Assembly: GCF_003473485.1 (NCBI RefSeq)
Contig: NC_053042.1
Span: 54,337,762 to 54,401,761, forward strand
Origin: Medicago truncatula
Taxonomy: Eukaryota; Streptophyta; Magnoliopsida; Fabales; Fabaceae
Direction: 5' to 3'
Length of the DNA stretch: 64,000 nucleotides
Shown: positions 10,013 to 51,270 of the stretch, one piece after another
Position numbering within the stretch: the first letter of the stretch is position 1
How the letters are laid out: every line of letters begins with the position of its first letter
The notes under the pieces: model-generated
The model's database searches: none
What the model was told of the DNA's origin: nothing
Seen by the model: the letters and a program-made list of their open reading frames with translations, nothing else
Made by a program: the position numbers and the translations under genes

Positions 10013-10614
10013 CTAAAGAAACAGACTTCTGAATTCACCATTTGCTAGTTGGCATAACTGATTGTAAGAGTTGACATCTACAAAGAAATACAAATACAAA
10101 TCAAAATCAACATAAGTAGGTAAACATCAGAACAATGGAAATTTAAAAGACCAAAAAGTAGTGTCTGATTCTAATTTGGCTGTTTATGTTGTAAACAAAA
10201 TGATTGACAAACAACATTTACTATGTGACAATTTTCTTCTTTTTCAAAATTTAAAAGTAATATACTTTATCGAGAACAAAAACACAAATCAACAAAACTA
10301 CCATAACGAAAACAGGTAAGAAAATTATATAGATAAACACAATAATGCTTCATACCAAATGTGGCACCAAAGTCAGTCAATATTTCAGCACGAATAGAGT
10401 TGTTACTTTCAGCAATGCCAATAACCTCAACATAATTCATGACAGGGACTTGTGATGATAGCCCTTTTACAATTATCTGAGATTCATCAGTGGACTTGCC
10501 CGTGATTGTCGCACCATCAGAATGATTCACCTGAACCACTGCTCTTACTTTCTTTCCAATGAAATCGGGAAGAACTTGGGCATTGACAAATGCAGCAGGA
10601 TTTGAAGTGTCCAT
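10013..10614 (-). CDS. RPA3A: Replication protein A 14-kDa subunit-like (RPA3), copy A
   Basis: Two coding exons, 10614-10356 and 10077-10013, joined by a GT-AG intron (donor G|GTATGA, acceptor GTAG|ATGTC), give exactly 107 residues. The protein begins MDTSNPAAFVNAQVLPDFIG and ends NQLCQLANGEFRSLFL. It is a single OB fold (about residues 8-87) and matches plant RPA3/RPA14 in length and in motifs such as GKSTDESQIIVKG and YVEVIGIAE. RPA3 is the smallest subunit of the heterotrimer that coats single-stranded DNA in replication and repair in the nucleus. A 5'UTR intron is indicated: leader donor near 10993 (ACG|GTAATT) and acceptor CAG|ATCATGG just before the start codon. Copy B (20659-21190) differs at five residues, so both copies look functional. 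Confidence 0.92.
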
Positions 10615-11036
10615 GATCTGAAGAGTAGAAATAAAAAACCAAAAATATCAAAAAGATTCAAGCTTTATAGACTTATACTCGAACAAGAATTAAGCAGCTG
10701 AAATTTCTGATTTCTTGATTATGATCAAGAACTTAACAAAAATTTATAGTTTTAACTTGATACCCAGATCGTAATTCTATGTTAAAGGGGGGGAAATAAC
10801 GATTTGCCAGACAAAGTCTTTGAGGACTTTCAACAAACACGATAAGTACATAGAAAAAAGGGGGGAATCTGGTTGATATTGTGTATGTATAATGAATGAA
10901 TAATTTCAAACATAAGACATGGATTGATGAATCGCAGAAGAAGAACTGAGAAAATTACCGTATTTTTTTTTTCGATCAAGAGAGAGAATTACCGTATAAT
11001 ATTGTTGTTGCGGAGGCTTGAAAATTGAAACCCTAA

Positions 11037-11408
11037 GGGGTGTTTGTTTCCTGGTTTAAAAAATTATTCCCAGGAACATGGAGGTTGGAATTATAGATTC
11101 CTATGTTTGTTACAAAGTTAAAAAAATAACTTCCGGGAATAAAGAATTTCTAGGAAAAAAATAACTTCCACTTACCCATGATTTTATTCCCAAAGAAAGT
11201 GGACGGGAATAAAAGATTCTCATGTAAATGGTACTAAAATGGAAATAACTACCCATATACCCACTATCACAAACAATTCCCATGAATCTGACAATTATTT
11301 ACCAAACACCGTTTTCTAAAAATACTCAGGAATAAGATGCCCATTATTAATTCCCAAGAAAGATTAATCCCAGGAATGAAATTTTAAACCGTCAAACAAA
11401 CGCCCCCT
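11037..11408. mobile_element. Tourist-like MITE (PIF/Harbinger type), 372 bp
   Basis: Inverted ends begin GGGGTGTTTGTTTCCTGG on the left and, reverse-complemented, AGGGGGCGTTTGTTTGACGG on the right. They are flanked by TAA on both sides (11034-11036 and 11409-11411). Copy B shows the uninterrupted site (ACCCTAAGAATGAATG near 21801), so the insertion and its 3-bp TAA target duplication are confirmed within the window. It lies in the upstream region of RPA3 copy A. Confidence 0.85.
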
Positions 11409-11411
11409 TAA

Positions 11412-12285
11412 GAAAAAATGAACGGAAGAGAAACCCTTTAAAAAGTATATTTTGTATATGGAGAGCGGAAAAGACGAAAAATAATAAAAGCGGGATCCGA
11501 AATTTTGTTCTTTAAGGCGGGAAAAATATATTCCTGAATTTACCATTTTCTCCATGTTTTAATGTATTTTTGTATATATGAAGAGTGGAGTATTTATTAT
11601 TTTAGTTTTAGTCCCTCTAATTATAGTGTTTTTTAGTCTTAGTTTACGTGGGAAAATTAGGTTCAGTCTTGCAAATTTAAAATCTGTTATTTTTATAAAC
11701 TGGTCAATTTCTTAAAATAACATTTTATAAACAAGACATAAAACTTAAATAAAACTAAAAAAAACTTATAGAAAATAAAACAAAACAAAATTTTATAATT
11801 TTAGAGACTAAAATCATTTTTAAACCACAAATTTATAAGTAGAAATCAAACTTAATAAATTTATAAGTTTATAACGCACAAAGTAACCACTTGTGCTTGA
11901 TGAGGCAATAAACAAAAAATATTTAAATCTACTTTAATAAATAAATGTTTTAGTTAATTGTAATTTATTTTTAATGAAATTGAGAAATAATTGTAATTAA
12001 AGGATACTTTAAGAATAATTGTAATTTATGTGCAATGTTTTTTTGACATAGACAATTGTTTTAACGCTCAGATAATACAAGCAATTTATTTTATTTTATT
12101 TTGACAGCATAATTATATATATTCAATATTTTAAAAATCACACTCGGATATATTGCAATTGCCATTTTGGTTGAACGGGTTGAAGCATAGTTGGCTCAAC
12201 AAATATTTATTTTTATTTCCTTTTTTTAATAATATTTGGCATTGATTGAGAAGATAATTCTGTCAAATCCCAGCTCAATACTCCA
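11412..12285. other. AT-rich intergenic, no gene seen
   Basis: Very AT-rich, with poly-A/T runs and no recognised protein or paired repeat ends. The first 100 bp still resemble the region upstream of RPA3 copy B (GCGGGA...TTCTTTA...GGCGGGAAA), then similarity fades. Confidence 0.4.
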
Positions 12286-12880
12286 CAAAAATGCATCTAA
12301 CAAAGCTTTTGCTTCTCCCATTCGGACTGACATCAAAGGTTCCAGCCATAGAGTGTTCACTCCGACAAACAAATCATCTCGTCCCTAATACATATTCCAA
12401 TACCAACTCATTATGATGAGAGAAAAAAAATGCTGGTAGGACGACACCATTGAATCAAACTGCTTTGCTTGAGCTGCTACCCTTGGGATCACGCTCGACC
12501 TCTACAAACCACATCAGCTGAACTTTCGACTTTATTTTCCCAAATTGTCAGGTTCCTACTCTTCCACAAGCTCCACATCGTGACAGCAAATATGCCACGG
12601 CAGTTGCTCCAAAACTTGAAACACACTTCCTAAACCACAGGTACTACTTCACTGATTGATTAAGCAGTTCAGCCATTCCCAAATGAGGCAACGTCTCTTG
12701 TCCCGCACCACCAAGGACACAGATCAGGAACGTGCGGGCCCTTATCTTGTAAACGCACACGAATAGGAACACAGTCACGCACCACACGACACATAAAAGA
12801 GTGAAATTTTGGAGGCACAGCCAGTTTCCACAGCAACTTCCAATAACCTGGCACCTTATACGCAGTCGTATCCATCATTT
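12286..12880 (-). pseudogene. LINE-derived zf-RVT remnant
   Basis: The minus-strand frame 12878-12669 reads YWKLLWKLAVPPKFHSFMCR, then VVRDCVPIRVRLQDKG, then CPWWCGTRDVASF. This is the zinc-binding reverse-transcriptase-associated domain (zf-RVT) of plant LINEs: W-K-L-L-W-K-L-x-V-P-P-K, then R-V-R-L-Q-D-K-G, then the Cys pair. Downstream on the same strand the coding traces continue in several frames with stops. It is dead and belongs to an old LINE insertion that is specific to copy A. Confidence 0.65.
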
Positions 12881-12889
12881 TCTTCCTAA

Positions 12890-13640
12890 TAAATGGTTAT
12901 TATGTCACGAAGTCCGGTTTCAACTTTTCTAAGCGACTATAAGAAATGTTGGTATATATTCCTTGAACCACTAAAGCAATGCAGCTCATGAACAAGACAG
13001 AATAAGTAGAGCCTGTCTTTCGAAAAAAAATAAGTACCAGAAGTGGAAAAATATATTAGCAGTACAGTATACTAGTGGCAGCCTGGTAGGTCCCCTTTTG
13101 TGCAATCCTTACATGCTAAAGGCTGCAGGCCAGTTGAAATGATCACTTTTCTTGATAGAAGCAGAACATGTTTTGCTTAAATGAAAATGAGATATAAATG
13201 CTCATCTTTCTCAACTTTCTTGATGCTCTCCATTTAAGGAATGCGGATTCCCTACCGTCAGGGGATGTGTTCACGCATTCATGACATTGGTGGCTGTCTG
13301 ATCGGACAGCCCATAAAAATGTTTTCATAAATCCAATACCGGGCTTAAATCTGATACGTTTGATCTTGATCAAGCGGACACCGATATACAACTGTGTGAA
13401 TTTGCGTATACATTGGGTGCGGGGGAACCGGGTCCCAATTTAAATCAGCTTGGTCTTGTTGGACCAAAATCAACCTTAATGCATCCACTTTTTTTAATGG
13501 AATCCGGCGGTTCTAAGTTTTAACAACATATAAAAGAAGAGGCAGACCAAGTTACACGCCAAACTTTAATTCCCACAGCAGCATACATATCATTAATAAC
13601 TGGCAACTACATGAGAAGAAATCTTCAAATTCATCAAAAT
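12890..13640. other. Intergenic, partly shared between the two blocks
   Basis: No gene seen. From about 13080 onward it aligns by eye with 23090-23460 of copy B (for example AAGACCAAGTTACAC near 13545 and 23446), which supports one duplication event covering genes and spacer together. Confidence 0.45.
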
Positions 13641-13643
13641 ACA

Positions 13644-13737
13644 CTACCAGTAATAGTAATTATAGAAAACAAACCGATGTCCTATAAACGCTACCAGTAA
13701 TAGTAATTATAGAAAACAAACCGATGTCCTATAACAC
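13644..13737. repeat. 47-bp tandem duplication downstream of ferredoxin A
   Basis: CTACCAGTAATAGTAATTAT and the next 27 bases occur at 13644 and again at 13691 with almost no difference. Copy B has a single related stretch near 23523, so the duplication happened after the block duplicated. It lies in the likely 3'UTR or just past it. Confidence 0.75.
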
Positions 13738-13864
13738 GTTTCCTTTCCTTATTTCCTAAAATGATTCAATAAGTTACACAAACACCAACCTAGTTTCACA
13801 ATAATCAGCTACATGACACATGGTCAAAACATGCACGGAAAAACTAACAAAAAGCATATATCAC

Positions 13865-14335
13865 TTAGTAGAGTTCTTCCTCCTTGTGTGTGTAAATCAC
13901 AGTATCTGATTTTGGGTATGAGACACAAGTGAGAAGATAACCCTTCTCGATTTGCTGCTCATCGAGGAAAGATTGATCAGACTGATCGACAGAACCCGTA
14001 ACCACTTGGCCAGCACAAGTAGAACATGCACCCGCTCTGCATGAATAAGGTAGCTCCACTCCAGCATCTTCGGCTGAATCCAGAATGTAAGAGTCATCAG
14101 GGGCATCAAATTCGTTCTCTGTTCCATCTGGTCCAATCAGTTTCACTTTGTATACTGCCATTGCAGATACTCTAAATGAGGAAGATTTTAGTCCAAATGT
14201 TTTGGACACATTCTTCACAGATCTCAAACTTGATGGACTCTTCCTCAGAGCACAAGATGTCCGAGACGGCGCTGTTCCGTACAATGAAGCTGTTGTAAGT
14301 CTCACAGCGGACATATTCACAGCTGACATTTTCAT
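13865..14335 (-). CDS. FD3: Root-type [2Fe-2S] ferredoxin, plastid, copy A
   Basis: The 156-residue intronless frame has a Ser/Thr/Arg-rich plastid transit peptide (about residues 1-59, with [14 protein letters not shown] before the cut). The mature protein then begins [17 protein letters not shown]. The cluster ligands are Cys99, Cys104, Cys107 and Cys137 (C-x4-C-x2-C-x29-C). The C-terminus HKEEELY resembles the non-photosynthetic Fd3 group rather than leaf ferredoxins. Fd3-type proteins take electrons from NADPH via root FNR and feed nitrite reductase, sulfite reductase and glutamate synthase. The 5' leader is interrupted by a long intron (acceptor TTCAG|GTATGAAAATG just before the start). 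The second ATG two codons later is the one that matches copy B. Confidence 0.95.
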
Positions 14336-20658: not shown

Positions 20659-21190
20659 CTAAAGAAACAGACTTTTGCATTCACCATTTGCTAGTTGGCA
20701 TAACTGATTGTAAGAGTTGACATCTACAAAGAAAGCCAAATCAAAATTAACTTGTAGATTTAAGTTGTGAACAAAATGATTGACAAACGCCATTTAATAT
20801 GCGACAGTTTTCTTCTTTTTCAAAATTTAGAAGTTCCCTAATTAATTGATAACAAAAACAGAATTCAACAAGACTACCATAACAAAAACAAGTAAGAAAA
20901 CTATATAGATAAAAACAATAGTGCTTCTTACCAAATGTGGCACCAAAGTCAGTCAATATTTCAGCATGGATAGAGTTGTTACTTTCAGCAATGCCAATAA
21001 CCTCAACATAATTCATGACAGGGACTTGTGATGATAGCCCTTTTACAATTATCTGAGATTCATCAGTGGACTTGCCCGTGATTGTCGCACCATCAGAATG
21101 ATTCACCTGAACCACTGCTCTTACTCTTTTTCCAATGAAATTGGGAAGAACTTGGGCATTGACAAATGCAGCAGGATTTGAAGTGTCCAT
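20659..21190 (-). CDS. RPA3B: Replication protein A 14-kDa subunit-like (RPA3), copy B
   Basis: Exons 21190-20932 and 20723-20659 join across a GT-AG intron (donor G|GTAAGA, acceptor GTAG|ATGTC) into 107 residues with the same OB fold as copy A. Differences from copy A are Asp17Asn, Lys22Arg, Arg75His, Phe102Cys and Arg103Lys. The last two fall in the C-terminal helix that in RPA3 helps build the trimerisation bundle, so this copy might assemble less well; that is an inference. The leader again has an intron: donor near 21764 (ACG|GTAATT) and acceptor TTTCAG|GCCATGG. All splice sites are intact and there are no stops, so it is probably expressed. Confidence 0.9.
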
Positions 21191-21849
21191 GGCCTGAAAC
21201 AGAGTAGAAATAAAAAACCAAAAATATAAAAAAGATTCAAGCTTTATAGACTTAACTCGAACAATAATTAAGCAACTGAAATTTCTGATTTCTTGGATAT
21301 GATCAAAAACATAAAATCAACAAGATCCTGAGCAAAAATTTATAGTTTTAACTTGAAACCCATATCATAATTCTATGTTAAAGGGAAAAATAACGATTTG
21401 CCAGACAAAGTCAAAAAAGATTTAAGCTTTATAGACTTAACTCAAACAAGAATTAAGCAATTGAAATTTCTGATTTCTGGGTTATGATAAAAAAAAACTT
21501 CAAATCAACAAGATCTTAAAAAAAAAAATCTAGTTTTGACTTAAAACCCAAATCATAATTCTATGTTAAAGGGGGAAAATAAAAATAACAACAGGAAAAA
21601 GAAAAAAAAACTATATGCAAAACAAAGTCTTTGACGACTTTTAACAAACATGATAAGTGCATAAAAAAGGGGAATATGGTGGAAATTGGGTATAAAGAAT
21701 GAATCACTTGAAACAAAAGACATAAATCATTGAATCACAGAAGAAAAGTTGAGAGAGAATTACCGTAAGAAGTTGTTGTTTCGGAGGAATGAAATTGAAA
21801 CCCTAAGAATGAATGAAACGAAGAGAAACCCTAAAATGCGTTTGCGTAA

Positions 21850-23640
21850 TTTGAGTTGAGAGAGAGCTACAACACGGAAAAGGTTATAAATAATAGAAGC
21901 GGGAAAGATACAATCAATTGTGTTCTTTATGGCGGGAAACTAGTATTACTGACTTTACGATTTTCTCCCTGCTGCAAATCTACTTTATTTTGAGCTGTTT
22001 GTTAGGTGTTTATTTTTGAACTGTTTGTTGGCGGGAAAGATAAAATCAATTATCATTACTCGCTACGTCTTAAATTAGGTGTTTATTTTAAGTTTTACAC
22101 GGTTATTAAAAAAATCATTTATGATGTTGATTTTAATGATAATTGTATGTTAATGAAAAAAATAATAAATATTGTATTTATATTGTAAAATGGACGGATA
22201 ATTTAAGAAAAAAATAGTAAAGAGAACACTTATTTTGAAACAGGTAAAGTATAATTAGAAAAATGTGAAAAATAATATATTATAATTTGTGTAGTCAAAA
22301 CTCTTGCAAAAAATGTTATTTTCAATGTTTTTTTATTTATTTATTAACCAATGAAGCACTAATTAGTATGACCCTTTTTTTTTTTTTTTTTTTTTATTTC
22401 TACTAGCGTTGGGACATGTATTAATATATGTCTTTTTTATTTTCTATTGTATGTATATTAGAAAATATTATTATTATTTTTTAAATATTTATAAGATACT
22501 TCACAAATAGTCTTAGATGCATATTTTGAAAAATACGAAGGTTATAAAAAAGGTGAGATAAAGTTGTGAATCTTCAATGAAGCTATATATAATTCAATTT
22601 AAAATGGGGGATATACTTCTTGAATCAGTAAACTTACTTCTTGATGAACCCGACTTAAAAAATCGTGTTTTTTTATGGATGATAATAACGAGAGGGAAGA
22701 AATTAAACCAATCAACATTAGACAAAACTTGTTTTGAATTGGTTTTAGTGTTGTTTAGTTTTTGTTGATATCTCAACATAGGGATACAATTAGATTGTGA
22801 TTTATAAAAACTCAATATTTTGTGATTTTTATAAATCACAAAATTAGATAAAATTTGGACACATTCTTTTGTTTTGAATTTGGATGATTCAATCGATTAA
22901 CATTAGATAAAATTTAAATTTATTTTGAATTTTTTTAGCGCTATTTTTGTTGATATACCCCAACATATGGATAAAATAGTTTATGATTTATAGGAAAACT
23001 CTTTTGTATTTTAATCGCAAGTATATTTTTTTTAAAATTGAGATCCGTGTAAATCACAAGTATATTTTTTAAAAAATTGAGATCCGTGTAATAGTGGTAG
23101 GTTCACTCTTGTGCAATCCTTACATAAGGTTGTAACTCTAAGCCACAGTTGAAATGCTCGCTTTTTTTCATACTTCAATGAAAATTAGATGTAAGAGCTC
23201 ATCTTGATGAAAACGGTGAAAAAAAAAAAAAAAAAACTCACATAAATTAACAATATAAGGATAAAGAAATCAACGATATTCTCACTTTCTTTGCCTTCTT
23301 GACGTTCTCGATTAAATTTATGTCAGATTGGTCGTGTTAGACCAAAATTAATTTTAATGATGTAATAAAAAAAAATCAATATTAATGCACCAACCTTTTG
23401 ATGGAATCCGATGCTTCCAAGTTTTAATAACATATAAAAGAAGAAGACCAAGTTACACACCAAAGTTCAATTGCCACAGCAGCATATACGTGAGAATAAA
23501 TCTTCCACTGCATCAAACTAGGCTACTAGTAATAGTACATTTTAAAAACAAACTTATCTCCTATAAATTGTTTCCTTTCTTTATTTCCTACAATGATCAT
23601 TAAGTTACACAAACAGCAAGAGTTTCACAATAATAAGCTA
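21850..23640. other. Intergenic inside copy B
   Basis: Extremely AT-rich with a long T run at 22376-22396. Two nearly identical words, AAATTGAGATCCGTGTAA, stand at 23035 and 23074. The stretch from about 23090 matches copy A spacer. No gene seen. Confidence 0.4.
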
Positions 23641-23684
23641 CATGACACATAATCAAAGCAAAACTAACAAAAATCATATATCAC

Positions 23685-24149
23685 TTAGCAGAGTTCTTCC
23701 TCCTTGTGTGTGTAGATCACAGTATCTGATTTTGGGTATGAGACACATGTGAGAAGATAACCCTTCTCAATTTGCTGCTTGTCGAGGAAAGATTGATCAG
23801 ACTGATCAACAGAACCCGAAACCACTTGGCCGGCACAGGTAGAACATGCACCAGCTCTGCATGAGTAAGGTAGCTCCACTCCAGCTTCTTCAGCTGAATC
23901 CAGAATGTAATAGTCATCGGGGGCATCAAATTCGTTCTCTGTACCATCTGGTTGAATCAGTTTCACTTTGTATACTGCCATTGCTGAGATTCTAAATGAG
24001 GAAGATTTTAGTCCAAATCTTTTGGACACATTCTTCACAGATCTCAAAGTTGATGGATTCTTCAGAAGAGCACAAGATGTCCTAGAGGAAGCCGTTCCGT
24101 GCAAAGAAGCTGTCGGAAGTCTCATGGTGGACATATTCACCGCTGACAT
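23685..24149 (-). CDS. FD3: Root-type [2Fe-2S] ferredoxin, plastid, copy B
   Basis: The 154-residue intronless frame parallels copy A: transit peptide to about residue 57, mature start [17 protein letters not shown], and cluster ligands Cys97, Cys102, Cys105 and Cys135. The transit peptide differs more than the mature part, as is usual for plastid targeting sequences. The last residue is Cys instead of the Tyr of copy A and the aromatic residue usual in this group. That adds an exposed thiol away from the cluster. The leader intron acceptor (GATTCAG|AATAAAAATG) directly precedes the start. It is likely functional and redundant with copy A. Confidence 0.94.
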
Positions 24150-26160: not shown

Positions 26161-26162
26161 TA

Positions 26163-26401
26163 CTCCCTCCGTCCCGAAATATAAGCAAAAAAAACTCATT
26201 TTCTTTGTCCCAAAATATAAGAAAGAAAAAAAAAACAAACTTTTATTATATTTAATCTTGTTTTTAAAAGAAATCATCTTTTCCAATAAAAACTTTTGCT
26301 TATTCTCATGAAATTAATTGCAAATTACATTTAATTTTCTCTCTCTTTCATTTTTTAAGTGTGATTTTTGTTTTTTTGCTTATAATTTGGGACGGAGGGA
26401 G
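26163..26401. mobile_element. Stowaway MITE (Tc1/Mariner), 239 bp
   Basis: Perfect terminal repeats CTCCCTCCGTCCC and GGGACGGAGGGAG are flanked by TA on both sides (26161-26162 and 26402-26403), the standard target duplication. The arms include AAATATAAGCAAAAAAA and its inverse. It is well preserved, so probably a recent insertion. Confidence 0.9.
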
Positions 26402-26482
26402 TATTGAACTAGTCGGTTGGGCTTTAAACGACTAACTTTGGACTTTCAAAGTACCACTTTACAGCTTACGATAATTAGATTC

Positions 26483-27220: not shown

Positions 27221-27228
27221 TATATAAA
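27221..27228 (+). promoter_or_regulatory. TATA box of the NUP50-like gene
   Basis: TATATAAA sits about 30 bp before the probable leader (AGAGTTTCTAGTTCTTCTTC near 27255). The leader ends at AGCTAAAG|GTATATC (27300), and a 5'UTR intron runs to the acceptor TAAACAG at 27539. Confidence 0.55.
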
Positions 27229-27550
27229 CAACGGTAACAAGTATAAGCGTTTTCAGAGTTTCTAGTTCTTCTTCTTCTTCTGCACGCGACATAGCTAAAG
27301 GTATATCTTCTTTTTCAATTTTCCCGCCTTTGATGAATCTGTTGTGAATCGTGAATTACGAATTGGTGTTTAGGGTTTTAAACCTTCTTTAGATACTTTG
27401 ATGAAATTAAACCCTCAATCACACTAATTATTCAAATCTTCACGGTTTAGGGGATTAGGGTTTAAAACCTTTGAATAAATTGCTTTGTTTTTAGGGATTT
27501 TGAGAAATTGACCTTGTTTTGATATAATTCTCTAAACAGAAGTTGCTACG

Positions 27551-30500
27551 ATGAAAAATATAGAGAGCAAAGATAGAGAGTCTCATGAGACGACCAACAT
27601 GTTTGGACATACTGCGAGCACAAACCAGTTTGATTTTCTTGAAAGTAAGTTTGTGCCTTGTCGTTTTCTTTTTTTAGTTTCAACCGTATTCAAATATCCT
27701 CACATTTTGCTTTCTTATTATTTGATCAAAACAATGAATAGGAGTTGCTAAGCAGAAAGAAGAAGAAAGTAAGTTTCTTTCTCTTTTCGGGACCAGCCGG
27801 TCTCTTTTTGAGAAGCCTCCTGTGGAGACCAGCACATCTCTTTTTGAGAAGCCTCATATGAGAACCAGCCCATTTCTTTTTGGGAAGCCTCCTGTGACGA
27901 CAAGCCCGTCTCTTTTTGAGAAGCCTCCTGCAACGACTAACTCGTTTCTTTTTGGGAAGCCTCTTGTGACGACAAGCCCGTCTCTTTTTGAGAAGCCTCC
28001 TGCAACGACCAGCCCGTTTCTTTTTGGGAAGCCTCCTGCGACGACAAGTCCGTCTCTTTTTGAGAAGCCTCCTGCAACAACTAGCTCGTTTCTTTTTGGG
28101 AAGCCTCCTGTGACGACAAGCCCGTCTCTTTTTGAGAAGCCTCCTGCAACGACTAGCCCATTTCCTTTTGGGAAGCCTCCTGTGACAACAAGCCCGTCTC
28201 TTTTTGAGAAGCCTCCTGTGAAGACCAGCCCGTCTCTTTTTGATTTCATGAAGCCTCCTGTGAAGACCAGCCCGTCTCTTTTTGATTTCATTAAGCCTCC
28301 TGTGAGGACCAGCTCGTCTCGTTTTGAGAAGCCCGACTCGTTTCTTTTCGAGAAGCTTCCTGTGCACGAAGTGGAAAGTAAGTTTTTGCCTTGTCTTTTT
28401 TTTTTTAAATTTTTTTTTTTTTTTTTTTTAACTTTCAACCATATTGAAATATTCTAACCCTCTGGTTTCTTATTTGATCAAAATAATGCACAAAAGTTAC
28501 TAAGAAGCAGAAAGTAGAGAGCATAGAGGGAGAGCCTCTTGTGACGACCAACCCGTTACTTGCTGAGAAACCAGAAGTGGAAAGTAGGTTTACTCTCAAT
28601 GTTGTATTATTATGTTCTTTTCGAATTAATTTTCACTTCATCCTTTTGTCATGATTTAGATTTTGACTTTAGAACCATGTCAAGATGCAATTCTTTTTTG
28701 CTTTCCATCCACTTTTTTATTTTATAACTTTCAGCCATGTTAAAATATCCTCACCCTTTGATTTCTTATTTGATCAAAACAATAAATCGAAGTTGCTAAG
28801 GAGCACCATTCAAATAACAAAAAAGAAATTGCTATGATGAAAAACGTAGAGAGCACATATGGAGAGCCTCATGTGACGATCAATGTGTTTGCTGCTAAGA
28901 ATGAAGAAGTAGAAAGTAAGTTTTACTCTCAATGGTGTAATGATATGTTATGTGAATGTGAATCTGGGCTCGTTAGGGTTTAAAAACCTTTAAACTGTTT
29001 TTTTTTTTTTTTTTTTGGATTTTTAAAATTGATTGTGTTTTGATTTTGATATAATTTTCTTGCCTTTGATGAATAAACAGAAGTTGCTGAGATGAAGAAC
29101 GTAGAGCGCACAAATGGAAAGCCTCATGTGACGATCAACTTGTTTCTTGCTAAGAGGCAAAAAGTAGAGATAGAGAGCACTGAGGGAGAGGATCCTCATG
29201 TTACGATCAACGTATTTCCTTCTAAGAATGAAGAAGTAGAAAGTAAGTTTCACTCGATGTTGTAATCATATGTTCTTTGCAGTTGAATTAGTTTGCACTT
29301 CGTCCATATGTCATGATTTAAATTTTGACTTTAGAACCATGTGAAGATACAATTTTTTTTTGCTTCACTGCTTTATGAAAATGCAAGCTCTTAATTGAAT
29401 GTTAATATGCACGTAAGTTGGTTATGTTTATCTTGCTATTGTTGTTTATCCCATTTAATTTTTATTTTTTTTGCTACTTTGTCTGCTATTATGTTTTTTA
29501 GGTTGCTCGATGGATGCATTTGGTCGTTGTCCTTGTCTTTTTCTTTTTTATCTTTCAACCATATTGAAACATCCTCACCCTTTGGTTTCTTATTTGATCA
29601 AAACAATGAACAAAAGTTGCTAAGCAGCAAAAAGTAGAGAGCATAGAGGGAGAGTCTCTTGTGACGACCAAACCGTTTGTTGCTGAGAAACAAGAAGTAG
29701 AAAGTAAGTTTTACTCTTGATGTTGTATTAATATGTTCTTTGCAGTTGAATTAATCTGCACTTCATCCATTTGTCATGATTTAGATTTTGACTTTAGAAG
29801 CATGTGAAAATAGAATTCTTTTTGCTTTACTGCTTTATGAAAATGCAAGCTCTTGATCGAGTGTTAATATGCACATAAGTTGGTTATGTTTATCTTGCTA
29901 TTGTTGTCAGACTTGGAAAATTGAGCCCATTTCATTCTCTATTTTTTTCCTGTTTTGTCTGTCTTCTGTTATGTTTTTTAACATAATAGAACAAACCTTA
30001 TAACCATCTTATTGGGATTTCTGAGCTGATTTATAACATGTTCTTTGCCTTTTCAGTTTGTATATGAAGCTTATAATTATACATTATGCATACACTTGTT
30101 GTCATTCATATAGCATAGTTTACTCTTATGTTGAATGCATACTTTCTGACTGCAATTTTTGTTGTATTGAAATTTGGGGATATAGAAGTTCTTTCTGTAA
30201 TGGAGGATGCCAAAAATGCCCTACAGTCGTCAAAGAAAAGGGCTGCTGAACGGGAGCTCACTCGAGACACTCCTCTTGACGATGAGGAAGATGACACTGA
30301 CCTTGAAGCTGGAACTTTCAAAAAAGCCAGTGACGAGGTTCTGGCAACCAAAAGAATAATCAAAGTATCACGTCGCCAACAGAATAATTCTGATCCTTCT
30401 TCAAACCCTGTCGCTGGAATACGCTTGGCTGCTCCCACTGTACCCACTGCCCAGCCTGGTGAAGGTACTACGATTTACTCTCAATGCTGTAATGTTCTAT

Positions 30501-31119
30501 TGATGTGTTCTTTGCAGTTGAATTAATGCACTTCATCCATTTGTTACGATTTAGATTTTGGCTTTAGAATGCAATTCCTTTTGCTTTCCTATTTTATGAA
30601 GAAAATGCTAGCTACTGATTCAGTGTTAATACGCACATAAGTTGGTTATGTTTATCTTACTATTGCTGTCAGACTTGGAAAATTAATCCCAATTCATTCT
30701 CTATTTTGTTTTTGCTGTTTTGTCGGTCTTCTGTTATGTTTTTTTGGTTGTTTGATGTTTGCCTGTCTTCTATTATGTTTTTTTGGCTGTTCGATTTATG
30801 CATCTGGCTGTTGTGCCTTGTCTTTTTCTTTTTTAGCTTTCAGCCACGTTAAAGTATACTCACCCTTTGGTTTCTTATTTGATCAAAACAATAAACAGAA
30901 GTTGCTAATGCGATGTCTTGGGGTGCCAGCGTACGTCCAGAACATCAGGACAGTCTCTTTAAACAATGGGGTGCCAGCGTACGTCCAGAACATCATGACG
31001 GTCCTTTTAAACAGGGTACGGTGTCTTGGGGTGACAGCGTACATCCAAAACATCATGCCAATACCATTAATGAATGGGGTAGGGTGTATTGGGATGGCAG
31101 CAAACAGCAATCTCATTAA
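27551..31119 (+). CDS. NUP50-like FG-repeat protein made of cassette exons
   Basis: Eight exons (27551-27644, 27742-28377, 28497-28583, 28793-28915, 29081-29242, 29617-29703, 30186-30464, 30899-31119) splice by GT-AG into one frame of 562 codons. Every internal junction is phase 1. Exon 2 holds about 15 repeats of 12 residues alternating SPSLFEKPPATT with SPFLFGKPPVTT; the latter carry FxFG motifs. Exons 3-6 are variants of one cassette (K-x-V-E-S-x-x-G-E-P-x-V-T, then K-x-E-V-E). Exon 7 has the NUP50/NUP2 N-terminal signature: KKRAAERELTRD, DLEAGTFKKASDEVLATKR, then NPVAGIRL where plants usually have NPFAGI. In known NUP50 that segment binds importin-alpha and sits at the N-terminus, with FG repeats and a RanBP1 domain after it. 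Here it is near the C-terminus and no RanBP1 domain is seen. A nuclear-import role is inferred; expression is untested. Confidence 0.72.
27797..28370 (+). repeat. 36-bp coding minisatellite (12-residue repeats)
   Basis: About 15 tandem units of 36 bp, mostly AGCCCGTCTCTTTTTGAGAA followed by GCCTCCTGCAACGACT, alternate two types (LFEKPP and LFGKPP) and so form a 72-bp higher-order unit. Two late units are lengthened by six bases (LFDFMKPP and LFDFIKPP). Frame is kept throughout, which argues for selection on the protein. Confidence 0.9.
28378..30898 (+). repeat. Duplicated intron-exon cassettes
   Basis: The introns share blocks in the same order. One block begins ACTCTCAATGTTGTATTA after each donor (about 28590, 28924, 29250, 29710, 30476). 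Another is GTTGAATTAATCTGCACTTC-like, with a following GATTTAGATTTTGACTTTAG. A third is GGTTTCTTATTTGATCAAAA shortly before the acceptor (27718, 28464, 28760, 29585, 30868). The exons between them are also alike. This is repeated whole-cassette duplication inside one gene. Confidence 0.8.
30909..31101 (+). repeat. C-terminal W-G-x-S-V repeats of the NUP50-like protein
   Basis: The last exon encodes four related units: SWGASVRPEHQDSLFK, QWGASVRPEHHDGPFK, SWGDSVHPKHHANTIN and EWGRVYWDGSKQQSH. The first two are about 48 bp each at DNA level (GGGGTGCCAGCGTACGTCCA repeated). I do not recognise the motif from a named family. Confidence 0.8.
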
Positions 31120-46025: not shown

Positions 46026-47266
46026 ATTTTGATTTAGATTGAAATTTATCACTCTATATACCCAATGGGGTATATAGTATGCCCGTTGGAGTATATAAAA
46101 GTCTTAGAATATCATTATTGTAAATTAATGTAAACTGATTAACATTGATTAGTCATGCATGTATAGGATCAATACTCTGATTGTATATATACAAAACCTA
46201 AAGGAATGGAAAGGCAAGGCCTATTATTCTAACATGGTATCAATAAACATTAGGTATTGATCCAAGAACCCTAGTTTCTTTCCCTACCGCCGCTGACCTC
46301 CTCTTCCTCCCAACCACCCACGCCGGCCGCTCTCTCTCCCCTCTTCTCTTCTAAAAAATTTGATCACCCACCAACATCTCATCATGTCTGGTGTCTCATG
46401 GACCCCCTCTTCCCCGCCTACCCACCCCGCCTTCACCATTTCAAACATCACAAATTTAATCAAAATTACATTTAGTATTGAAAAGGGTCAATATAACACG
46501 TGGTCTGAACTGTTCAAAATCCATGCCCGTGTTCATCAAGTAATTGATCATATCATCCCCACCGAAGTTGTACCCTCTCCTGACCTAAAAACCATTGATC
46601 CTAATCTCTGGGAACGATTAGATGTTGTTGTCCTACAATGGATTTACGGCACTATATCGGATGATATCCTTCACACCATTATAAAACGAGATTCCACTGC
46701 AGAACAAGCATGGAATCGGTTGTTCAATATTTTTTATGATAATAAAAATTCTCGTACTCTCTATCTAGAGCAAGAATTTTCAAATGCCCGTATGGAGCAA
46801 TTTCCTGATGCCTCCACCTACTGTCAACATCTCAAATCTCTCTCTGACCAACTCTTTAATGTTGGTGCTCCCGTGTCCAACGAAAGTCTAGTGCTTCAGC
46901 TCATCTTTGGCCTCACTGATGCTTATGCCACAGTCGGTTCCCAAATTCGTCACGGTGACTCTCTTCCCCCTTTTTACAAAGCTCGCTCCATGATCATCTT
47001 AGAGGAAACCGCCAAAGCCAAGAAGGCAGTCACTACTGTTGATAACTCAGTTTTCTTATCCTCTCATGATGATGCTTTTGCATCGGCTGGTAACAATCGC
47101 AACAACAACAACAAAAGTCGCGGAAGCAACCCTCGCGGTGGTAGAAATAATGGTCGCGGAGGTCGTGGATGGAGCAATGGTAGAGGTGGAGGTCGCTCTC
47201 AGCCGCAACAACCCCTGTGGTTTCCATCTCCCTATCAGCAACAGTCATGGGTGTATCCATGGCAGC

Positions 47267-49371
47267 TGTAACACCCCGTCTTCCCAATATAAAAATTTCA
47301 TAACAAATAATCAGAGTTTTCCACATAAACGGAATGCTACACTTCTTAAAAATCATAAATTGGAATAAATAACAATTTATCCTTCATAATTCAATCAACA
47401 TAAATATTCAAAACTTCGCAGCGGATTTAATTCAACAACATAAATAGTCTTGGCACGAAGGCCTCATCAAAACATCTCATAAAAATCCAATTAACAACTT
47501 AATCATATAAATTCATAATCAAATACGTAAGGAATAGAAAATAGCCACAAAAGTTCCCATCCCGTTACGTATCAGAGCACCTAAAGACACAATGAGAGAT
47601 GGCCACTCACGACAGCAATCAACAGCTACTTATTCTCGATCACCTGCAAGTTACTCATACAAAGAGCAACATTTCGAAGCAGAAGGGGTGAGATTTCAGA
47701 AAACAATAATATTAAGGATATAATTCATCAATTATATTTAACAACATGACAATATCATAAATTCTTCATGGATAATAATATAATCATATAGCACTTTATT
47801 AACACCTCATGTATAGAATCACAACTTAACAACTTGACAACTTAACAACTTTGACTCGACAATGCGACTTCAACTTGACTATGCAACCTAGACCTCTTAA
47901 TCATGTATGTGGTACCAATCCAGGGCATCAAGCCCTCAACGTGTTTAAGTATTAATATACTTCCAGGGCATCAAGCCCTCAACTTAATTGAGCAAAGGCT
48001 CAAGGGCATCAAGCCCCCAACAATGAATGAGTATGCATGGACTCAACAACTTAACATCTTAGAACATCGACCTCTTATATAAATCCAATAATTTGGAACA
48101 ACATCTTTCATCTTAGACCGACTCATGCAGTTTAGTTAATAAACAAACGGCAACATAGGCAGTTCATAAAATAGTTCATGATATAACAATGTCAAATGCA
48201 AATCAACAACATCTCAAACATCATATATAATTCATGTAATGCATATACATTTATATCACATTATTAACAACATCGGATCATATAATTCAGGCTTACTGAA
48301 ACAACAACAGTAAGATAAGCAACTTAGTTTCTTACCCCCATGATCAACTCACGTCAACTCGTGCGACAAAGGTCACATTTATCCTAACAAGGTATTCTGT
48401 CTCACAGGGGCTCGCGAGGCGAGAGCCTCTACTCGCTATGGCGAGCTCATAAAATTGGCATTCGCCTTGGCGAACAAGAAACTGGATGCTCTCGGGAATT
48501 TGACATTTTTCACCCAAAAATCCATTTTTAAACTTTCCCAGGTTCAATCTCAATCTAAAAACTTGCCTAATCATTATTATACATATACAGGCACTCAAAA
48601 TCAGCTAAAACTCGACTTAATAAGTCAAATCACAAATCAGGTTTCCTCACTGGTCATACTCGCTATGGCGAGCTGCAACATGCAACTCGCGAGGCAAATG
48701 AAACTTGCTCGCGAGGCGAGCGATGAAGATCATCACTCGCGAGGGCGAGGATCATCCCTCGGGAGGCAAGCCATGAATGTTGGCTCGACAGAATTGCAGT
48801 TTTCACGAAAATCCACCTAAAGGCATGGTTTTAAGCTTAACATTGATTCCAGATATCAACCTATGAATTGTCTAAGGTCTATAAACAGTTTCTACATCAA
48901 TCTAACAATTTTTCATCAATTAATCATCAATTTCTCCCTTTAACCTAATTCTCAAATTCTCTAAAACCAATCCTACACTTGTTAAATTTAATCATCAGAA
49001 TTACAGACTTAATAAGATTGAATGCTAGTCTCACTCTTACCTTAAGAATTCGAAATCGCAGCCTCTTGTTGGTTCTTCTCTCTTTTCTTGACTTTTCTCC
49101 CTTTTCTCCAAAATTGATCGTACGTTAAAACTTTTCTAAACCTAGCCCTCACCTATTTATATCTCCTCTATCTATTCTATCTTATTTCCTCTTTCTCCCC
49201 CAAAACTCTCTAAAATCTCAAAACAACCCCTCAACTCAATATTTATTTTATTTTCAAATCTTATTTTATTAAACAATAAAATAAGTCACAACACCTCATT
49301 AAATCACACAAATCATATAAATATATTCTAAACTCAACAAAATAATTAAATAAATCAAAGTGGGCGTTACA
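47267..49371. mobile_element. Solo LTR inserted in the Copia gag region, 2105 bp
   Basis: It begins TGTAACACCCCGTCTTCCC and ends GTGGGCGTTACA, that is TG...CA ends with a short TGTAAC/GTTACA inverted repeat. It is flanked by the exact 5-bp duplication GCAGC (47262-47266 and 49372-49376). No internal retroviral coding region is present, so it is a solo LTR left by LTR-LTR recombination, or a non-coding relative. TGTAACACCC ends are common in plant Ty3/Gypsy LTRs, which is the likely family. It contains three copies of GGGCATCAAGCCC (47932, 47970, 48002) and a cluster of CTCGCGAGGCGAG-like words (48405-48770). Confidence 0.8.
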
Positions 49372-51270
49372 GCAGCCATAGGCAACTCCACCATGTCCAT
49401 ACCCGACAACAGGTGCACCACCAAAACAGTCTGGCATACTTGGTCCTAGGCCTCATCAAGCCAATCTTGTCACTGCTCCATCGGCCAGCAAGCACCACAA
49501 TACTATGTCCCGACAGACATTCAGGTTGCTATGCATACTTTCTCTATCCCCCCCCCCCGATGATCGATGGTATATGGACAGCAGAGCAACTTCTCATATG
49601 ACAGGCAATGGAGGTAACCTCACGACTTATTTTAATATGAGTAATAATATTACTATTGGAAATGGTCATCATATTCCTATTGTAGGTTCTGGTCATGCAT
49701 CTTTACCTAATTCCCTAACTTTAAACAACGTTTTACATGCACCAAAACTTATTAAAAACTTTGTTTCTGTCAGAAAGTTTACAATTGATAATGATGTCTC
49801 TGTTGAATTTGATCCCTTTGGTTTTTCTGTGAAGGATTTTCAGACAGGAACACTTTTAATGAGATGTAACAGTTTTGGTGACCTTTACCCTATTCCCACA
49901 AGCCAACACACAGCCGCAGCCCCATCACCACCATCAGCCTTTGCCGCTTCATCTACCGAGTTATGGCATTGTCGTCTAGGACATCCAAGAGCTCCTGTTT
50001 TAAATTCTCTCCATCGAAACAAATTTTTGTTATGTAATAAGTTGCGTGATGATTTCTTTTGTCAATCTTGTCCACTTGGGAAACAAATAAAACTTCCTTT
50101 TTCTAATTCTCTGTCTTTTAGTTGTATGCCTTTTGACATCATTTATAGTGATCTTTGGACCTCTCCGGTGTTAAGTTCCGGAGGGCATCGTTATTATGTG
50201 TTATTTCTTGATGACTTCACCTATTTTTTGTGGACTTTTCCAATCAGTAACAAATCATATGTCTATTCCATTTTTTCACAATTTCGTGCTCATATTCAAA
50301 CACAATTTGAACGCCAAATAAAATGTTTTCAACGTGACAATGGCAAAGAATATTATAACATTCTTTTTCAAAAATCTTGTGAACAAAATGGAATGTCATT
50401 TAGATTTACTTGTCTTGTCCTCACACCTCCCCTCAAAATGGAAAATTTGAAAGAAAAATTCGTACAATAAATAACGTCATCCGCACCTTCCTTGCTCATG
50501 CTTCTATTCCTCCAATATTTTGGCATCATGCTCTTCAAATGGCCACTTACTTACACAACATAATTCCAAATAAGAAACTTAATCTTCAATCACCCACAAA
50601 AATTCTCTACCAAAAAGACCCAGCTTATTCACATCTTCGTGTATTCGATTGTCTTTGCTATCCCCTCATTCCATCCACCACTAGAAATAAACTCCAACCT
50701 CGGTCTACACCATGTGTTTTTCTAGGTTATCCGTCTAATCATAAAGGTTAAAAGTGTTATGAATTGTCGAGTCGTAAAGTCATTATCTCTAGGCACGTTC
50801 TGTTTGAGGAAAATACTTTTCTGTTTTCTACAATGAATGCTCCTACAGTGCCAAACAACAATTTCTTAGATGACGACATACTTCATCTTGCTCACTCACA
50901 ATTATACATTACACCTCAAACGACTCTTTCTTCCCACATAACTACTCCCTACAACCCAAGATATCACTACCTCTCAAACTACACCCATATCCCATATAAA
51001 TTCTCCTTCCCCAACACCAACTTCCGAAACACAAACTTCTCCTACCTCCCCACCTCAATATATAATCACTCATGTTTTCCCACATGCACCCCTTTCTCCT
51101 CAAATGAAAACTCGCTCCCAACATGGTATTTTTAAACCTCGTCAACTTTTCAACCTACACACATCAACCCCTCAATCCATTTCTCCTTTACCCATAAACC
51201 CAATTGATGCATTAAAAGATCGCAATTGGAAGATGGTCATGAAAGACGTACATGATGTTCTTATTAATAA

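Follow-up and report, generated by a model that had tools for sequence, protein, structure and literature searches.

The locus and its predicted gene

Here we describe a predicted gene near the middle of a 64-kb stretch of the Medicago truncatula genome, referred to below as the window (C1:54337762-54401761; the genome comprises 430 Mb in 42 contigs). Eight predicted exons join through GT-AG sites into 1689 nt, that is, 562 codons and a stop (Table 1). Every internal junction lies in phase 1, and the six inner exons, all symmetric (1-1) and with lengths that are multiples of three, are each open in the phase-1 frame only. Rebuilding the chain thus bore out what an earlier note on this DNA had proposed on exon number, splice sites, phase and exon length. 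Stops, frameshifts and lost splice sites, the marks of pseudogenes that were checked, do not occur in the predicted chain. When bases were shuffled within each exon, the joint chance that all eight would be open came to ~10^-13.7, which is an overstatement, given the 36-nt repeat that makes up exon 2 and the partial copying among exons 1-6.

The exon carrying the ATG is probably itself a cassette of the kind described below, beginning at 27540 and placed behind a putative non-coding exon that would end near 27300, with the TATA-like TATATAAA at 27221. A similar start context, AAACAG AAGTTGCTAAGATG, is found in two paralogues (L025 and L047). Use of the alternative acceptor of exon 4 would give a product of 551 aa, while in exons 3 and 6 the acceptor AG lies 3 bases further downstream than is usual in the family, with the phase kept. 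Exon 8, searched as DNA, matches nothing in the genome but itself.

Table 1. Features of the predicted gene and its surroundings (window positions)
Feature	Position	Strand	Remarks
TATA-like box TATATAAA	27221..27228	+	sequence match; putative function
Probable non-coding first exon	27250..27300	+	start approximate; no ATG inside; donor GTATAT at 27301; predicted from sequence
Exon 1 (cassette)	27540..27644	+	ATG at 27551; acceptor AAACAG before 27540; donor GTAAGT
Exon 2	27742..28377	+	cassette ends flanking a 36-nt (12-aa) repeat, ~15 units; 5 FxFG units
Exon 3 (cassette)	28497..28583	+
Exon 4 (cassette)	28793..28915	+	alternative in-frame acceptor at 28826
Exon 5 (cassette core twice)	29081..29242	+
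Exon 6 (cassette)	29617..29703	+	near copy of exon 3, introns included
Captured NUP50 segment	30010..30471	+	end of NUP50 5'UTR intron, acceptor, 5'UTR tail, first ~85 codons; left edge uncertain, ~29980-30010; right edge 30469-30473
Exon 7	30186..30464	+	NUP50 importin-alpha-binding-type domain (Pfam PF08911, 50 bits; PDB 3tj3_C and 2c1m_B); donor GTACTA
Conserved 3' intron end and acceptor region	30816..30908	+	one of five window copies; the others start at 27656, 28411, 28707 and 29531
Exon 8	30899..31119	+	begins with the acceptor and initial codons of a cassette; repeats of ~48-60 nt follow; stop TAA

Other elements surround or overlap the gene. Upstream, a stretch of ~240 bp (26162-26404) with inverted ends (CTCCCTCCGTCCC...GGGACGGAGGGAG) resembles what we take to be a Stowaway-type MITE. 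Opposite exon 2 (27726-28438, minus strand), two long frames, of 213 and 194 aa, are open and most likely represent a by-product of its 36-nt repeat period. Farther away on the minus strand, two similar ORF pairs (10267-14335 and 20747-24149), presumably replication-factor-A-like and ferredoxin-like, suggest the tandem duplication of a block, and ORFs at 46360-51135 show likeness to retrotransposon parts, presumably gag and integrase of a Ty1/copia-type element.

A family of phase-1 cassettes

The repeated unit of this gene comprises the intron as well as the exon. Exons 3 and 6 are identical at 78/87 positions, and their flanking introns at 67/75 and 86/95, so that these exons are as diverged as their introns; likeness is lower in the other two exon pairs compared (75% and 79%). 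The proposal that the gene grew by duplicating phase-symmetric exons is supported by these likenesses. Copies of the unit also occur at numerous sites elsewhere in the genome. The window gene has all the elements by which the family is recognized: the shared 3' intron end with its acceptor, the shared 5' intron, and open, phase-1 symmetric exons.

A DNA search with the segment 27200-31300 gave 126 matches in the genome, the window itself counted. The 3' intron end with its acceptor yielded 25 matches at three mismatches or fewer, four of them within the window gene (0 for the reversed control), and by DNA search it occurs at no fewer than 42 places, five of them in the window gene; the intron-end matches sit on contigs C1, C2, C4, C7 and C8. 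Of the 64 acceptor-type matches found across the window and the loci retrieved, 59 distinct exons remained after five had been removed: an exact duplicate, a partial match and three with no donor close by. Thirty-eight of the 59 are open in phase 1, the two remaining frames giving 7 and 5 (one exon may be open in several), and 37/59 have lengths divisible by three; being related copies, the exons are not independent trials. Splice sites were chosen automatically as the first AG and the first donor-like site, a procedure that shortened exon 2 of the window, and the 21 exons that are not open as so cut include degenerate copies and erroneous cuts as well as probable terminal exons.

The cassette peptides (those of the window protein, the NUP50 domain apart, and two from L025) present no Pfam domain above the cut-off, an exon of L033 has no Pfam match, and NCBIfam, a prokaryote-centred library, gave nothing convincing. 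Among the papers listed in literature searches, none describes either the gene or the cassette family, as judged by titles and the openings of abstracts.

Regarding the rate of change, the pairwise NG86 method gives Ka above Ks in 5/6 window cassette pairs, one of which has zero synonymous changes, with a ratio of 0.96 for exons 3 and 6. Under codon models applied to 6 window and 11 family cassettes, omega is ~1.4 (final values 1.39-1.43), and fixing it at 1 costs 0.5 and 0.9 lnL under MG, and 0.7-2.6 lnL under GY (kappa fixed too; two settings). Positive selection, considered as a candidate, was not retained, since the estimate is indistinguishable from 1; selection on the cassettes, whether positive or purifying, is not demonstrable and we claim neither, and neutrality is not rejected. 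As for the description of the gene as fast-changing, the cassette omega is above 1 as an estimate, though not distinguishably so. Two long cassette arrays lie at C1:29.85 and 29.82 Mb (L025 and L047), with relatives at 29.45 and 29.58 Mb; three exon pairs from these arrays have an omega of 0.45, from only eight changes.

Origin of the FxFG repeats

The five FxFG units that the earlier note had pointed out in exon 2 are indeed present. The Pfam Nucleoporin_FG model matches residues 101-186 with 28 bits, below its cut-off of 32.2, and the 36-nt unit matches the core of the cassette model (model positions ~57-99). At the protein level the repeat has two other matches only, both at C1:24.56 Mb and both 55% identical, in which the units read TTNPFLAVKPPV or TANSLLAEKPPV, without FxFG. 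Three window units share 24-30 of 36 bases with three units of C1:24.56 Mb, and 22-25 of 36 with two cassette cores of the window, as compared with a mean of 9 and a maximum of 18 when one exon 2 unit was shuffled against the same two cores. Moreover, FxFG occurs in none of the 38 family exons open in phase 1, and in 2 of the 21 family translations that contain stops. Altogether, the FxFG units most likely grew from the core of the cassette itself and not from NUP50, and the motif would be a derived trait of the window gene.

A captured NUP50 segment

Exon 7 is of a different nature. A profile search found in it the expected NUP2/50 domain (PF08911; residues 413-469 of 562, 50 bits against a cut-off of 22.5), and it resembles the crystallised Nup50 fragments 3tj3_C and 2c1m_B (E 7e-5 and 7e-4). 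Both importin-alpha-binding segments are recognisable (KKRAAERELT ... EAGTFKKASDEVLATKRIIKVSRR), the KR pair included. Two published reports describe the Nup50 N-terminus as binding importin-alpha through two segments and as aiding cargo release (PMC5902713; PMC3946659). Like the NUP50/Nup2 nucleoporins, among them plant Nup50a/b, which combine PF08911 with RanBP1, the window protein has a bipartite segment of importin-alpha-binding type; it also has some FxFG units, which fall short of the Nucleoporin_FG cut-off. It differs from them in that Pfam finds no RanBP1 match in it, the domain starts at residue 413 instead of being N-terminal, and most of its length is cassette sequence, its FxFG units being seemingly of other origin.

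The NUP50 profile matches the genome at three places (C4:3.273 Mb, the window and C7:28.476 Mb), to which a DNA search adds C3:10.957 and C4:4.158 Mb, five places in all. The gene at C4:3.273 Mb is intact, with NUP50 and RanBP1 domains (RanBP1, 68.4 bits). Window positions 30010-30469 are identical to it at 391/465 positions: 147/170 in the intron, 16/16 in the 5'UTR tail and 223/254 in the coding part. Indels amount to 3 and 6 nt in the exon and to 4, 2 and 5 nt in the intron part. As the captured segment includes the NUP50 intron, it is a copy made at the DNA level, and a retrocopy origin is ruled out. On the reverse strand of L001 (~921-1123), upstream of the intact NUP50 coding sequence, the end of the 5'UTR intron is seemingly tandem-duplicated, the second stretch having 71% likeness to the window copy over 211 nt.

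The borders of the segment can be read on both sides. To the left, the cassette intron extends to ~29979 and is followed by ~30 unclear bases, and then by NUP50. At the right border, NUP50 reads GAAGCTACT and the window GAAGGTACT; the homology stops a few bases past the exon 7 donor, where the cassette intron (GATTTACTCTCAATG...) resumes. The presence of cassette intron on both borders means that the segment either replaced a cassette or entered between parts of a cassette intron. It kept the NUP50 acceptor, and it has a GT donor where NUP50 has CT, which would have arisen through one base change.

The other copies qualify this picture. In places, such as AGAATAATCAAAG and part of the 3-nt indel, the window copy differs from C4 and agrees with the C3 and C7 fragments, and the immediate source may thus be a relative of the present C4 gene; since that exon 7 indel is partly common to the two fragments, it need not have originated in the window gene. 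Within the coding part, the C7 (L003) fragment of the NUP50 N-terminus has lost a single base at one place and the C3 (L044) fragment at two, and both have ATAT in place of the acceptor ATAG of the window copy. The fragment of the NUP50 N-terminus at C4:4.158 Mb (L043) is truncated, yet open over its NUP50 part, and lies outside any cassette gene seen; it weakens the contrast between the window copy and the broken ones. From its ATG, exon 7 differs from C4 NUP50 with Ka 0.123 and Ks 0.208 (omega 0.59, bootstrap 0.28-1.49), omega being 0.36 in the domain core and 1.45 in the tail. These values are suggestive only, and selection on the residues is not demonstrable. The claim that the gene is young should be set beside this Ks of ~0.2.

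A second fusion

Cassettes have also met another kind of gene. WD40 exons and PUL-like pieces, which together we take to resemble a PLAA-type gene, are separated at C4:15.19 Mb by cassette introns (4 acceptor and 9 donor matches); one WD40 exon is narrowly above the Pfam cut-off (27.3 against 27) and the next below it (15.2). PF08324 and PF09070 have one genome match each, at C4:34.10 Mb, and none at C4:15.19 Mb. In the 18 kb around the C4:34.10 Mb gene, WD40 is matched at 75% and 78% and PUL more weakly, and no cassette intron is present at E 0.01. The 78% WD40 match extends to residue 23 of 43, the point at which the cassette part starts. It appears from these comparisons that a partial PLAA/WD40-type copy at C4:15.19 Mb likewise contains cassettes.

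Assembly of the gene and competing explanations

We consider it fairly probable that this predicted gene codes for a protein and belongs to a family of genes assembled by duplication of phase-1 exon+intron cassettes, with a captured piece of NUP50. The near-identical introns suggest that exon+intron units would duplicate through unequal exchange, leaving the frame intact. In one cassette the 36-nt core would have expanded and drifted into FxFG-type repeats, as the comparison of sequences indicates. The alignment shows that a piece of ~460 bp from NUP50 was copied into one cassette or in place of it, bringing an acceptor and the importin-alpha-binding segment, with a GT donor now present at its right edge. 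If expressed, the largely low-complexity product could engage importin-alpha as the NUP50 N-terminus does; lacking RanBP1, it would take part in nuclear import as a NUP50-like ligand, either pared down or competing.

The probabilities that we attach to the competing explanations overlap and need not sum to one. The locus might be a recently assembled chimeric pseudogene, in which cassettes and NUP50 piece are segmental duplications in frame by chance and no functional protein is made. We regard this as unlikely, while giving it real weight: constraint on the residues is not shown, the C3 and C7 fragments are broken, 21/59 family exons are not open, and the C4:4.158 Mb fragment is open even without a cassette gene. 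Against it stand the eight open exons, the preference for phase 1 across the family, and an exon 7 with its acceptor kept, its donor present and its indels in frame. What most suggests a coding role is the family-wide frame, together with the contrast between the captured piece and the broken fragments at C3 and C7, a contrast that the open fragment at C4:4.158 Mb softens. Somewhat less probable still is that the cassette gene is expressed with exon 7 unused, the NUP50 piece being an intronic insertion skipped in the mRNA. As its donor GTACTA is unlike the GTAAGT type, exon 7 could be skipped, and skipping a symmetric inner exon would not harm the frame; however, the piece kept both acceptor and open frame, which the C3 and C7 fragments lost.

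The earlier note had seen here a NUP50-related gene rebuilt and enlarged by duplicating its own exons. The NUP50 domain and the FxFG units do occur in one predicted protein, and both the duplication of exons and the domain stand. Nevertheless, the 9 kb around the intact C4 NUP50 gene contain no cassette intron, cassettes occur at many loci and NUP50 matches at only five places, and NUP50 homology ends at both borders of the 460-bp segment. The host is a cassette gene that received one inserted segment from NUP50, and growth from a NUP50 gene is highly improbable.

The cassette-gene reading has known parallels. Exon shuffling and tandem duplication of class 1-1 symmetric exons are established concepts, and the window gene agrees with them in that all its inner exons are 1-1, duplicated with their introns, and in that a foreign exon stands in frame among the cassettes. 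Unlike that class, its cassette has no Pfam domain above the cut-off, and in the closest cassette pair the intron is about as conserved as the exon. Among legume genes, Medicago nodulin-25 (Nms-25), a nodule protein, was reportedly described in 1990 as evolving through exon shuffling.

Significance

It is conceivable, though we hold it doubtful, that the cassette family constitutes a genome-wide exon-exchange system that acquires parts of ordinary genes, such as NUP50 in the window gene and a PLAA/WD40-type gene at C4:15.19 Mb, which compatible introns of the same phase would make possible. In the window gene, both nucleoporin-like halves would then have arisen independently, the FxFG units from a non-FG repeat and the importin-alpha ligand by capture, giving a new modulator of nuclear transport.

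The locus could be seen as a multi-exon gene caught in the course of its assembly and readable within one genome, where one can trace the likely donor gene and the borders of the insertion, the acceptor that was kept and the donor site that was gained, the sequence from which the FxFG repeats probably came, and the stock of sister cassettes. Intron-mediated exon shuffling in plants and the rise of FG-like repeats thereby become directly testable. If translated, the gene would yield an importin-alpha ligand devoid of the Ran-binding part, and a possible competitor of NUP50.
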